NCBI GenBank assembly: GCA_002694745.1
Contig: NZMY01000053.1
Location: 1 to 64,000 of the forward strand
From: Croceicoccus sp.
GTDB lineage: Bacteria > Pseudomonadota > Alphaproteobacteria > Sphingomonadales > Sphingomonadaceae
DNA length: 64,000 nucleotides
Reading direction: 5' to 3'
The notes under the pieces were generated by a model. It had not been told where the DNA came from. It was given only the letters and a program-made list of their open reading frames with translations, and searched no databases. The position numbers and the translations under genes are program-made. Of the stretch, positions 4,094 through 55,955 are shown piece after piece (positions within the stretch are counted from its first letter, which is position 1; each line of letters begins with the position of its first letter).

Positions 4094-4176
4094 GTTACGG
4101 GTAACTCCCTCGTCTGGACGCCATGGGGCGCGGCGGGAATCTAGGCGCGAGAAGGCGGGCAGGCAATGATTGCCAA

Positions 4177-4198
4177 CATATAAAGCTTTCTTTATATG
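4177..4198. promoter_or_regulatory. Inverted repeat operator CATATAAAG-CTTT-CTTTATATG
   Basis: Perfect 9-bp arms, 4-nt spacer, 7 bp before the ATG of the ArsR-type regulator; near-copy upstream of metK. Confidence 0.8.
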
Positions 4199-4205
4199 CA
4201 CCGCC

Positions 4206-5252
4206 ATGACCACCGCTCCGCCTCTCGTGGAACTGCTGCGCGCGATCGACGATCCGTCGCGCCTGCGGCTGCTGCGCCTGCTCTCGCGCATGGAGCTGGC
4301 GGTGGGCGAACTGGCGGAAGTGCTGGAACAGAGCCAGCCGCGCATCTCGCGCCATATCCGCATCCTCACCGAAGCAGGCCTTGTCGAAAAGCGCAAGGAA
4401 GGCAGCTGGGTGTTTCTGAAAACGCGGATGGCGGGCAGCGATTCGCCGATGCTGGCTGCGGCGGACCGGATGCTGGCCGCGGCGGAAGGAGAGGACGAGG
4501 ATTTCGCCGCGCTGTGCGATGGCGACATGCGCCGCCTGTCCGCGATCCGCACCGCGCGCGAAACCAGCGCCGAATATTATTTCGCCCGCCACGCCGACGA
4601 ATGGGACCGGCTGCGCACCCTCCACAGCGACGACGCGCTGGTCGAGGCAAAGCTGGCTTCACTGCTCGATGTGGAAAGCGGCGACGGAGACGCGCCCTTG
4701 GGCCGGATGCTCGACATCGGCACCGGCACGGGCCGCATCGCCGAACTCTTCGCGCCCTTTGCCAGCCATGTCAGCGCCATCGACAAGAGCAACGACATGC
4801 TGCGCGTCGCCCGCGCGCGGCTGCAGGACCTGCCGCCCTCGCGGCTCAACCTGCTGCAGGGCGACTTCACCGATCTGCCGTTCGAGGACGCCAGCTTCGA
4901 CACCGTGCTGTTCCACCAGGTGCTGCATTACGCGCAACTGCCCGAACTCGCACTGGCCGAGGCGGCCCGCGTCACCCGCCCCGGCGGGCGCGTCGCCATC
5001 GTCGATTTCGCCGCCCATGCGTTCGAGGAATTGCGCGAACGCGACGCCCACGCCCGCCTCGGCTTTACCGATGCGCAGATGGACAAGCTGCTGGGCGATG
5101 CCGGTTTCGCACTAGGCGACACAGCATCCCTGAAAGGCGAGGAACTGACGGTCCGCATCTGGACCGGCACCCGCCGCAACCCAATTCCCCATATCGTCGC
5201 CCGTAAGGCCGGAACCCGGCGGGCCGACACCACAGCGCGGACAACACCATGA
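4206..5252 (+). CDS. ArsR-family regulator fused to SAM-dependent methyltransferase domain (SahR-like)
   Basis: N-term ArsR wHTH (LRAIDDPSRLRLLRLLSRMELAVGELAEVLEQSQPRISRHIRIL) + MLDIGTGTGRIAELFA Rossmann methyltransferase; heads metF-metH operon. Confidence 0.85.
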   Translation: MTTAPPLVELLRAIDDPSRLRLLRLLSRMELAVGELAEVLEQSQPRISRHIRILTEAGLVEKRKEGSWVFLKTRMAGSDSPMLAAADRMLAAAEGEDEDFAALCDGDMRRLSAIRTARETSAEYYFARHADEWDRLRTLHSDDALVEAKLASLLDVESGDGDAPLGRMLDIGTGTGRIAELFAPFASHVSAIDKSNDMLRVARARLQDLPPSRLNLLQGDFTDLPFEDASFDTVLFHQVLHYAQLPELALAEAARVTRPGGRVAIVDFAAHAFEELRERDAHARLGFTDAQMDKLLGDAGFALGDTASLKGEELTVRIWTGTRRNPIPHIVARKAGTRRADTTARTTP

Positions 5253-6187
5253 ACGATACCGTCTCGACAATCGGCAGGCCCCTCTTCGCCTCGCTTCCCG
5301 GCGACATCGACGTGTCGTTCGAATTCTTCCCGCCCAAGACCGAGAAATCGGAGCAGCATTTGTGGGAAACCGTGCTCGCGCTTGCCCCGCTGCGGCCCGA
5401 TTTCGTGTCGGTCACCTATGGCGCGGGCGGCAGCACCCGCGACCGCACGCATGACATCGTCGCGCGCATCATCCGCGAAGTCGGCCTCCCCACCGCCGCG
5501 CATCTTACCTGCGTAGAGGCGAGCAAGGACGAGATCCGCGAAGTGGCCGAAGCCTATTGGGAAGCGGGCGTGCGCCATATCGTCGCGCTGCGCGGCGATC
5601 CGCCGACGATGGGCCAGAAATTCGTGCCGCATCCCGACGGCTATGCCAGCGCCGCCGACCTTGTCGCGGGGCTTAAGGACATCGCGCCCTTCGACATCTC
5701 GGTCGCCGCCTATCCCGAAACCCACCCCGAGGCGGCGAGCGCCGAATCCGATCTCGACAACCTCAAGCGCAAGCTGGACGCGGGCGCATCGCGCGCGATC
5801 ACCCAGTTCTTCTTCGCGCCCGAGAAGTTCCTGCGCTTCCGCGACCTTGCCGCCGCGCAAGGGATCGACGCACCGATCCTGCCGGGCATCCTGCCGGTGT
5901 CCAACGTGGCCCAGACGCGCAAGTTCGCGAAGGCCTGCGGAGCCGAGATTCCCAAGTGGATGGAGGAACTGTTCGAAGGGCTCGACAACCGGCCCGAATC
6001 GCGCAAGCTGGTGGCGGCCACCATCGCCGCCGAAATGTGCCGCTCTTTGTATGCAGAGGGCGTGCGCGACTTCCATTTCTACACGCTCAACCGCGCTGAG
6101 CTTTCCTACGCGGTGTGCCATCTTCTCGGCATGCGCCCGAAGGAAAGCGCCCGGAACGCTTCCGGATTGCAGGAGACCGCAGCATGA
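5249..6187 (+). CDS. metF: Methylenetetrahydrofolate reductase
   Basis: VSFEFFPPKTEKSE, HLTCVEAS, ALRGDPP; ATGA overlap with upstream gene. Confidence 0.95.
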   Translation: MNDTVSTIGRPLFASLPGDIDVSFEFFPPKTEKSEQHLWETVLALAPLRPDFVSVTYGAGGSTRDRTHDIVARIIREVGLPTAAHLTCVEASKDEIREVAEAYWEAGVRHIVALRGDPPTMGQKFVPHPDGYASAADLVAGLKDIAPFDISVAAYPETHPEAASAESDLDNLKRKLDAGASRAITQFFFAPEKFLRFRDLAAAQGIDAPILPGILPVSNVAQTRKFAKACGAEIPKWMEELFEGLDNRPESRKLVAATIAAEMCRSLYAEGVRDFHFYTLNRAELSYAVCHLLGMRPKESARNASGLQETAA

Positions 6188-7245
6188 CGATTACCCCAAG
6201 CAAGGCGCGCGCCGCGTTCCTCGAACAGGCGTCGCAGCGCATCCTCATCACCGATGGCGCGTTCGGCACGCAGATCCAGACCAAGGGACTGGTCGAGGCC
6301 GATTACGCGGGCGATCTGGGCCTCACCAAGGACCAGAAGGGCAATAACGACATCCTCGCGCTTACGAAGCCCGAGGTGCCGGAATCGATCCACCGCGCCT
6401 ATTTCGAGGCGGGGGCCGACATCGCCGAGACCAACACGTTCAGCGCCAACAAGATCAGCCAGGCCGATTACGCGGCGGAAGACCTCGTCGCCGACATCAA
6501 CCGCGAAAGCGCGGCGCTGGCGCGGCGCGTGGCAAACGAGTTTGCCGATCGCGACGGACGTCCCCGCTTCGTGGCGGGCGCGATCGGGCCGACCAACAAG
6601 ACGCTTTCGCTCTCGCCAGACGTCAACGATCCCGGCTATCGCGAGATCGATTTCGATTATCTGACAGAGGTTTACCGCGCACAGTGCGAGGCGCTGGTCG
6701 AGGGCGGAGCCGACTTCATCCTGATCGAGACGGTGTTCGACACACTCAACGCCAAGGCGGGCATCATGGCCGTGCGCCAGATGGAACAGGCGCTGGGCCG
6801 CGAGGTGCCGATCATGCTGTCGATGACGCTGACCGATCTGTCGGGCCGCAACCTGTCGGGCCACACGGTCGAGGCGTTCTGGTACGCGGCGCGCCACGCC
6901 AACCCGCTGACCGTCGGGCTGAACTGCTCGTTCGGCGCGACGCAGCTGGCGCCGCATGTCGCGACGCTCGCCAAGATCGCCGATTGCTGCACCATGCATT
7001 ACCCCAATGCGGGCCTGCCGAACGAGCTGGGCGAATATGACGAAATGCCCGACACCACCGCGGGCTTCGTGCTCGACTGGGCGAAGCGCGGGCTGGTCAA
7101 CGTGCTGGGCGGATGCTGCGGTTCGACGCCGCAGCATATTGCGGCCATGGCCAAGGTTGTCGAGGGAATCGCCCCGCGCCAGATCCCCGAACCGACCCGC
7201 AAGACGCGGCTGGCGGGACTTGAACCCTTCATCATGGCTGCCTGA
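6184..7245 (+). CDS. metH: Methionine synthase, homocysteine-binding subunit (split MetH)
   Basis: [36 protein letters not shown] zinc-cysteine motif; ATGA overlap with metF. Confidence 0.93.
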
Positions 7246-7265: not shown

Positions 7266-9899
<2,634 letters not shown>

Positions 9900-52994: not shown

Positions 52995-54629
52995 ATGCAA
53001 ACGGCGAAAGCCATAGCCGTGCCCGCGCGCCTGATGCCTGTCGTCGACGCGCGATGGTTCCGGCCGGCTGCGGCATTATTGTGCGGCGTTGCGGCGGCAA
53101 CCGGTTTCGTGCCGCTGGGTTGGTGGCCTCTGTGCCTCGCCGCGCTGGCGGGCCTGACGGCCCTCGGCTTTTCGGCCACTTCGGCAGGCAGCGCGTTTCG
53201 CAGCGGATGGTTCTTCGGGGTCGGGCATTTCACGCTTGGCCTGAACTGGATTGCCACCGCCTTTACCTATCAGGCGGCCATGCCCGGTTGGCTCGGCTGG
53301 GTCGGCGTTTTCCTGCTTTCGCTTTTCCTGGCGATCTATCCCGGTCTTGCAGTCCTGGCCGCATGGGCGGTCACGCTGCACGGGCGAGCGCCAGAGGATC
53401 GATCGCCCGCCGCGTTCCTGCTTGCCTTTGCGGCCTTGTGGATCGGGTGCGAGTTCCTGCGGGCGACGATATTCACGGGCTTTGCCTGGAATCCGCTGGC
53501 AGCGGTCACGCTGGGCGGCTTTGACCGTCCGGGCCTTGCGGTCCTCTCCCAATTCCTTGGAACCTATGCGCTTTCGGGCCTTGTTGTCCTGATGGCGGGC
53601 TGCTGGTGGCTAGCCGTCAGGTGGAGTGAGCGCCGGATAGCATCCCTGCTGCTCATCGTGCTTCCCGCCTCCTTGATGCTGGCTCCATGGCCCGTGGTCG
53701 GCCAGCGGGCAGGCGACCTGCCTTTCCACCTCGTCCAGCCCGACATCCGGCAGGAAGTGCTGAACGAGCCGCAATTTTACGAGCGCAATTTCGTCAAGAC
53801 GATCCAGCTGTCCGGCATGCCGGCCGAAGAGGCCGAGACCCGGCTGGTGATCTGGCCGGAATCGGGCGTCCCCGATTTCCTGCAGCCCGGCTATCCCGAC
53901 CGTTATTACCGGCAGGCTACCTTTGCCGCCGACCCTGAAATTGCCCGCGCGCGGATCGCGAATTTGCTGGGGCCGGGCTCGCTGCTTTTGACGGGAACAA
54001 TCGACCTCGTGATCCCGCCGGGCGGGGACCGCGCGACCGGCGCCGAGAATGTGGTGACCGCGATTGCACCCGATGGCGATATCGTCGGCAGCTATGCCAA
54101 GGCGCATCTGGTGCCTTTCGGCGAATATCTCCCGCTTCGCGCATTGCTGGAACCGCTGGGTTTCACGCGGCTGGTGCCGGGCACGCTCGATTTTCGGGCC
54201 GGGCCGGGTGCGCGCACCCTCGATCTGGGGCGATGGGGCAAGGCGGGCATCCAGATCTGCTATGAAATCGTCTTTTCGGGCGAGGTCGTCGATCCCGCCA
54301 ACCGCCCCGATTACATCATGAACCCGTCGAACGATGGCTGGTTCGGCGCATGGGGCCCGCCCCAGCATCTGGCGCAGGCGCGGCTGCGCGCTATCGAGGA
54401 AGGCCTTCCCGTGCTCCGTGCCACCACCACCGGTATCAGCGCCGTGATCGACGCGGGCGGCGTGGTTCGCGCCCATGTTCCGCGCCATGTCGCGGCGTCG
54501 ATCGAAGGAAACGTGCCGCCTGCGCTGGCACCCACGCCGTTCGCGCGAATGGGCATTTGGCTCTCTCTGGCGTGGGGCGCATTGCTGTTCGCAATTGCGC
54601 TAGTTGCGTTGCGGCGGCGCGGGGGTTAA
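52995..54629 (+). CDS. lnt: Apolipoprotein N-acyltransferase
   Basis: Multi-TM plus nitrilase-like LVIWPESGVPDF, YAKAHLVPFGEYLP, QICYEIVF, NPSNDGWFGAWGPPQHLAQARLRAIE. Confidence 0.95.
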   Translation: MQTAKAIAVPARLMPVVDARWFRPAAALLCGVAAATGFVPLGWWPLCLAALAGLTALGFSATSAGSAFRSGWFFGVGHFTLGLNWIATAFTYQAAMPGWLGWVGVFLLSLFLAIYPGLAVLAAWAVTLHGRAPEDRSPAAFLLAFAALWIGCEFLRATIFTGFAWNPLAAVTLGGFDRPGLAVLSQFLGTYALSGLVVLMAGCWWLAVRWSERRIASLLLIVLPASLMLAPWPVVGQRAGDLPFHLVQPDIRQEVLNEPQFYERNFVKTIQLSGMPAEEAETRLVIWPESGVPDFLQPGYPDRYYRQATFAADPEIARARIANLLGPGSLLLTGTIDLVIPPGGDRATGAENVVTAIAPDGDIVGSYAKAHLVPFGEYLPLRALLEPLGFTRLVPGTLDFRAGPGARTLDLGRWGKAGIQICYEIVFSGEVVDPANRPDYIMNPSNDGWFGAWGPPQHLAQARLRAIEEGLPVLRATTTGISAVIDAGGVVRAHVPRHVAASIEGNVPPALAPTPFARMGIWLSLAWGALLFAIALVALRRRGG

Positions 54630-54634
54630 TGACG

Positions 54635-54655
54635 ATATAAAGAACTCTTTATACG
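54635..54655. promoter_or_regulatory. Operator ATATAAAG-AACT-CTTTATACG upstream of metK
   Basis: 7-bp perfect arms; 17 of 22 positions identical to the 4177-4198 site. Confidence 0.75.
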
Positions 54656-54695: not shown

Positions 54696-55955
54696 ATGCG
54701 TCAGAATTTCCTCTTCACTTCGGAAAGCGTCTCCGAGGGTCACCCCGACAAGGTGTCGGACCAAATTTCCGATGCCATCGTCGACCTCATGCTCGCCAAG
54801 GATCCCGAGGCGCGCGTGGCGTGCGAAACCATGACGACGACCCAGCGCGTGGTGCTGTCGGGCGAAATCCGCTGCAAGCCGATGTACGACAAGGACCGCG
54901 ACGAGTGGAAGTTCAACAATTACTGGGCCCCCGGCGCGCGTGACGAGATCGAGGCGGCGGTGCGCCGCACGGTGCGCGAGATCGGCTATGAGCAGGCCGG
55001 TTTCCACTGGGAAACGCTGACCTTCGAAAATCACCTGCATGGCCAGTCGGCCGAAATCGCCCAGGGCGTCGACGCGGACGAGGCGAGCAACAAGGATGAA
55101 GGCGCGGGCGACCAGGGCATCATGTTCGGCTTTGCCTGCGACGAGACTCCCGACCTGATGCCCGCGACGCTGGATTACAGCCACAAGATTCTGCAGCGCC
55201 TTGCCGAGGACCGCAAATCGGGCGCGGCGCCGTTTCTGGAGCCCGACGCCAAGAGCCAGGTGACCCTGCGGTTCGAGGATGGCAAGCCTGCCGCCTGCAC
55301 CGCGATCGTCGTGTCGACCCAGCACAAGCCCGGCTATCACACCGGCGATAAGGAAGCCGAACTCAAGGCCTATGTGCGCCGCATCGTGGCCGATATTCTG
55401 CCGCATAATTTGCTGTCGGACGAAACGGTCTATCACATCAATCCGACAGGCGCGTTCGAGATCGGCGGACCCGATGGCGACGCCGGCCTGACTGGCCGCA
55501 AGATCATCGTCGACACCTATGGCGGCGCGGCTCCGCACGGCGGCGGCGCATTCAGCGGCAAGGATCCGACCAAGGTCGACCGCTCCGCAGCCTATATCGC
55601 GCGCTATCTTGCCAAGAATATCGTCGCGGCTGGCCTTGCACGGCGCTGCACGATCCAGCTGTCCTATGCCATCGGCGTGGCGCATCCGCTGTCGATCTAT
55701 GTCGACACGCACGGCACTTGCGCCGACGGCATCAGCGATGCGGCACTGGAAGATGCGATCCGCAGCATCGAATCGCTGGGCGGTCTGACGCCGCGCGCGA
55801 TTCGCACCCGTTTGCAGCTCAACCGCCCGATCTATCGCTCGTCGGCGGCCTATGGCCATTTCGGCCGGACCGCTGCGGACGGCATGTTCCCGTGGGAACA
55901 GACCGATCTGGTCGAAGAGCTGAAGCAGGCGCTGGCCGTTCCCGTAACCGCCTGA
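54696..55955 (+). CDS. metK: S-adenosylmethionine synthetase
   Basis: [52 protein letters not shown]. Confidence 0.97.

Follow-up and report, generated by a model that had tools for sequence, protein, structure and literature searches.

What reads the palindrome that stands in front of metK, the gene for S-adenosylmethionine (SAM) synthetase? The first-pass annotation had placed it about 40 bp before metK and had matched it at 17 of 22 positions to a second palindrome at 4177-4198, and direct reading confirmed both statements. Positions 54634-54655 read G-ATATAAAG-AACT-CTTTATAC-G and positions 4177-4198 read C-ATATAAAG-CTTT-CTTTATAT-G, so that 17 of the 22 aligned positions are identical and 5 differ. 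The metK palindrome starts 5 bp past the stop codon of lnt, and the ATG of metK, at 54696, lies 40 bp past 54655. We propose herein that this palindrome is almost certainly an operator of metK for SahR, a regulator responsive to S-adenosylhomocysteine (SAH) that would control the sahR-metF-metH operon, metK and ahcY together. The relevant features of the window (the whole 64,000-nucleotide stretch that was analyzed) are as follows.

4170-4175, + strand: probable -35 element of sahR, TTGCCA, from the geometry of the sequence and of its relatives
4178-4197, no strand assigned: predicted SahR operator before sahR, ATATAAAG-CTTT-CTTTATAT, an exact core match that is kept before sahR in relatives
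4193-4198, + strand: probable -10 element of sahR, TATATG, 17 bp after the -35 element and forming the right half of the operator
4206-5252, + strand: sahR, an ArsR-type helix-turn-helix (HTH) domain (residues 16-62; PF01022, 55.8 bits) fused to a class I SAM-methyltransferase domain (about 166-272; PF08241, 90 bits)
5249-6187, + strand: metF, methylenetetrahydrofolate reductase, overlapping sahR by 4 bp (NF006950, above cut-off)
6184-7245, + strand: metH part 1, homocysteine S-methyltransferase domain (PF02574, 298.8 bits)
7266-9899, + strand: metH part 2, pterin-binding, B12-binding and activation domains (TIGR02082, 1143 bits)
52995-54629, + strand: lnt, apolipoprotein N-acyltransferase, directly 5' of metK (TIGR00546, 232 bits, cut-off 133)
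54604-54609, + strand: probable -35 element of metK, TTGCGT, within the 3' end of lnt, from conservation
54627-54632, + strand: probable -10 element of metK, TAATGA, overlapping the lnt stop codon TAA after a 17-bp spacer
54635-54654, no strand assigned: predicted SahR operator before metK, ATATAAAG-AACT-CTTTATAC, an exact core match
54696-55955, + strand: metK, SAM synthetase (TIGR01034, 472 bits, cut-off 309; three S-AdoMet_synt Pfam domains)

In a domain search, the open reading frame (ORF) at 4206-5252 matched PF01022 at residues 16-62 and PF08241 at residues 169-265, both above their cut-offs, and the glycine-rich motif DIGTGTGR is largely kept among 30 orthologues. The effector domain of the Desulfovibrio SahR is reportedly methyltransferase-like as well. 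The genome collection yielded 33 sahR loci, all but one from Sphingomonadales or Alphaproteobacteria; the named loci, with a best SahR identity of 77% over nearly the full length, assign the window to Croceicoccus or its vicinity. The regulator gene is linked to the SAM-cycle genes metF and metH: the order sahR-metF-metH recurs in the window, where metH is split, and in related named loci, including Croceicoccus. In most named loci, again including Croceicoccus, the operator immediately precedes sahR, and metF and metH follow the regulator gene. In architecture and gene neighborhood the predicted protein agrees with the published SahR.

According to citing papers, SahR was first described by Novichkov and colleagues. 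The core regulon given for alphaproteobacteria (Leyn et al. 2014, PMC4239095) comprises sahR, ahcY, metH, metH2, metF and metK, with a 20-bp palindrome as the binding motif, and SahR was present in 7/7 Sphingomonadales studied there. As summarized in PMC8877191 and PMC4239095, the Desulfovibrio SahR binds SAH and is released from DNA, and deletion of sahR in Ensifer aridi led to higher activity of the sahR promoter (PMC8877191). SAH as the presumed effector here is carried over by orthology from a deltaproteobacterium, and repression likewise from other species.

The degenerate palindrome pattern occurred at only two places in the window, each on both strands, where 0.01 was expected by shuffling, in agreement with the earlier judgment that the pairing of metF/metH with metK is unlikely to be chance. 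The accompanying remark that there is no third full copy held within the window, but not genome-wide. The core ATAAAGNNNNCTTTAT had three exact occurrences in the 4.02-Mb genome, against about 0.012 expected from base composition, and the third (C44:47134-47149) lies outside the window, 95 bp upstream of a gene that, from its translation, we take to be ahcY, coding for SAH hydrolase. All three exact cores precede SAM-cycle genes, namely the sahR-metF-metH operon, metK and ahcY; each is part of a common 20-bp palindrome, and the set of targets matches the core of the SahR regulon. The three predicted operators are a minimal SahR regulon in this genome. Two one-mismatch matches, C2:3882 and C20:17879, were rejected as sites, because the operator's outer AT/AT is not complete in them; the latter adjoins a transposase-like ORF.

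The first-pass annotation had staked its reading on conservation of the motif before metK in relatives that carry the regulator. The family sample comprised 61 genomes, and the regions upstream of metK and ahcY were scanned in 30 relatives. SahR is encoded in 55/61 genomes (in one, split over two contigs), and the other 6/61 gave weak domain matches only. A palindrome with at most two mismatches, in most cases exact, was found upstream of metK in 22/25 SahR-positive genomes, our own counted; the exceptions are G037, with three mismatches, and G012 and G059, with no site. Four of the five SahR-negative genomes (G008, G013, G023 and G058) had no site before metK or ahcY in the upstream scan, the fifth (G016) having a two-mismatch palindrome before metK. 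The association between a metK site and the presence of SahR gave a Fisher p = 0.006, with genomes that are not fully independent. The exact core did not occur in any of these five SahR-negative genomes, nor did a reversed control pattern in any of the 30 genomes. Recurring before sahR, metK and ahcY and nearly absent where SahR is lacking, the sites support the earlier attribution of the predicted operator to the regulator at 4206-5252, which the first-pass annotation had not named as SahR.

One seemingly SahR-negative genome (G022) was left out of the comparison, since it carries an exact site (C61:4-19) at a contig end; its orientation is that of a sahR promoter directed out of the contig, and sahR probably lies in an assembly gap. 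Across the class, a SahR homologue (E <= 1e-25) was found in 107/193 genomes. Many SahR-positive genomes outside the family are without the exact core, and small SahR-lacking genomes also match both the core pattern and the reversed control; such matches are probably due to chance, and the class-wide comparison was uninformative alone.

As judged from these distributions, predicted SahR control of metK is not universal in the family. G012 and G059 (L062, L070, L090 and L085) encode SahR and have an operator before sahR, with no metK or ahcY site, and apparently only the sahR operon remains of their regulon. In G016 (L077 and L106), where SahR is not detectable, degenerate palindromes precede metK (ACATAAAGACATGGTTATATGT) and ahcY; these may be either relic operators or the sites of another regulator. 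A methyltransferase match in this genome (L149) was rejected as SahR because it has no HTH. Tandem pairs of operators about 30 bp apart also occur, in L027 (G026), where both copies precede sahR, and at G246:C85:72818 and 72846.

The relation between operator and putative promoter appears to differ among the three targets. At sahR, the right half of the operator, TATAT(G/C), follows a -35-like TTGAC/TTGC at a distance of about 17 bp, and the operator thereby spans the spacer and the -10 element. The right half is intact in 26/28 genomes and the left half in only 14/28, as expected if the right half doubles as the -10 element. With TTGCCA and TATATG, transcription of sahR in the window would begin near its ATG (4206). 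At ahcY, TTGC is found at a fixed two-base offset past the operator in 17/22 genomes, mostly with GCTA 15-18 bp further, and the operator probably abuts the -35 element on its upstream side.

In the region before metK, 30/31 genomes share a TTG 17 bp upstream of the lnt stop codon. Codon -8 of lnt ends in TT in all 30 genomes with this TTG, whatever the amino acid, and all 22 valines at this position are GTT (22/22), compared with 12% of the valines at other positions of these genes (binomial 3e-21, relatedness ignored). The lnt stop codon is TAA or TAG in 31/31 genomes, TGA being the commonest stop among the other genes sampled. From the conservation of TTG and codon -8 and from the choice of stop codon, the metK promoter appears to be embedded in the 3' end of lnt (54604-54632), with the lnt stop codon forming part of the -10 element. 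This putative promoter is kept in four SahR-negative genomes that have no operator, and promoter and operator of metK thus appear separable. With the promoter so placed, SahR bound at 54635-54654 would cover the start site. We tentatively suggest, regarding it as somewhat more doubtful than probable, that metK has such an lnt-embedded promoter with the stop codon as part of its -10 element, and that the differing positions of SahR (over the spacer and -10 element at sahR, upstream of the -35 element at ahcY and over the start site at metK) possibly give three graded strengths of repression to a single SAH signal. A description of this three-target geometry was not found in the available portion of PMC4239095.

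Could the palindrome instead work at the RNA level, as a hairpin of the metK leader, that is, a small cis-regulatory RNA hiding the ribosome site? If the start proposed above is right, much of the palindrome would be transcribed at metK in most relatives, and it is often located 10-20 nt before the metK start codon in relatives. The same 20-bp motif, however, lies upstream of the predicted -35 element at ahcY and over the spacer and -10 element at sahR, and at these two genes it would fall outside the mRNA; moreover, its presence tracks sahR and no Rfam family matches it, and we hold the hairpin to be very improbable. No Rfam family reached the gathering score anywhere in the window, and none matched in 20 further loci around metK, ahcY and sahR from this genome and its relatives. 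The SAM_alpha, SAH and SAM-SAH covariance models likewise gave no leader match at the gathering threshold in the window, at the ahcY locus of this genome or at the scanned metK and ahcY loci of relatives. A riboswitch or another leader RNA was rejected as an explanation on the strength of the Rfam searches. These negatives bear out the earlier remark that no SAM riboswitch precedes metK, and together with the SahR-linked sites they fit its suggestion that protein control may replace one. Like the present system, SAM and SAH riboswitches make SAM-cycle or methionine genes respond to SAM or SAH, those for SAH preceding ahcY, but they are RNA elements, of which none was detected in the window or the scanned loci. 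Table 1 of PMC4239095 has no SAM or SAH riboswitch entry for Sphingomonadales, and SAH riboswitches are stated there not to control metK.

An equally remote prospect is that the operator belongs to another regulator, SahR being merely a co-inherited neighbor. The degenerate site that G016 keeps without a detectable SahR would suit this idea, but a site stands directly before sahR itself, clean sites vanish in SahR-negative genomes, and the published alphaproteobacterial regulon agrees in its targets and likewise has a 20-bp palindrome (PMC4239095). More improbable still is that the AT-rich palindrome arose by chance or serves lnt as a terminator hairpin. The position 5 bp after the lnt stop codon would suit a terminator, and relatives do contain unrelated exact cores without the flanking AT/AT (e.g. 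L143 and L148) that could be chance or terminator-like. Nevertheless, three copies were found in the genome against 0.01 expected, all before SAM-cycle genes; 16-20 specific bases are kept across genera, the stem is low in G+C and has no T-run, and the footprint across SahR-positive genomes refutes this explanation for practical purposes.

For the preferred reading, a SahR operator, the following scheme may be drawn. SahR (4206-5252) would sit on three operators, those of its own sahR-metF-metH operon, of metK and of ahcY, and its C-terminal methyltransferase-like domain would bind SAH. When SAH is low, SahR would repress; when SAH builds up, it would leave the DNA, and SAH hydrolase, methionine synthase with MetF, and SAM synthetase would be induced jointly. 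At metK, where the operator appears to overlap the transcription start just 3' of the promoter in the lnt end, bound SahR would presumably block initiation or promoter escape.

The system is already known, being an ordinary instance of the SahR regulon described in PMC4239095. It shares with that regulon an ArsR-family regulator inferred to respond to SAH, a 20-bp palindrome and the targets sahR, metF, metH, ahcY and metK, and there is no substantive difference, the regulon here being minimal, with three operators. SamR of Xanthomonadales is likewise a SahR-like regulator of methionine genes, but it is about 30% identical to SahR and has a 24-bp motif, a larger regulon and belongs to another order (PMC4239095). 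The small additions made here are the third site at ahcY, the footprint set against SahR-negative genomes and the probable lnt-embedded metK promoter. These data support the view that SAM synthetase in this organism is under SAH feedback through a protein repressor, not a riboswitch. They add an instance, with no new principle, of a compact three-operator regulon with a testable lnt-metK promoter arrangement, for which the SahR-negative relatives are a natural test of operator loss.

Two minor observations concern ORFs judged by eye. In a relative, G004 (L147, about 1052-1075; G004:C9:515755), a metK-type operator, AGACATAAAGAACTCTTTATATTG, stands about 20 bp before a PilZ-domain-like ORF, which is a possible extra target of SahR. 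Within the window, the ORF at 898-2112 resembles a P4-type tyrosine integrase and lies near a tRNA-methyltransferase-like ORF.
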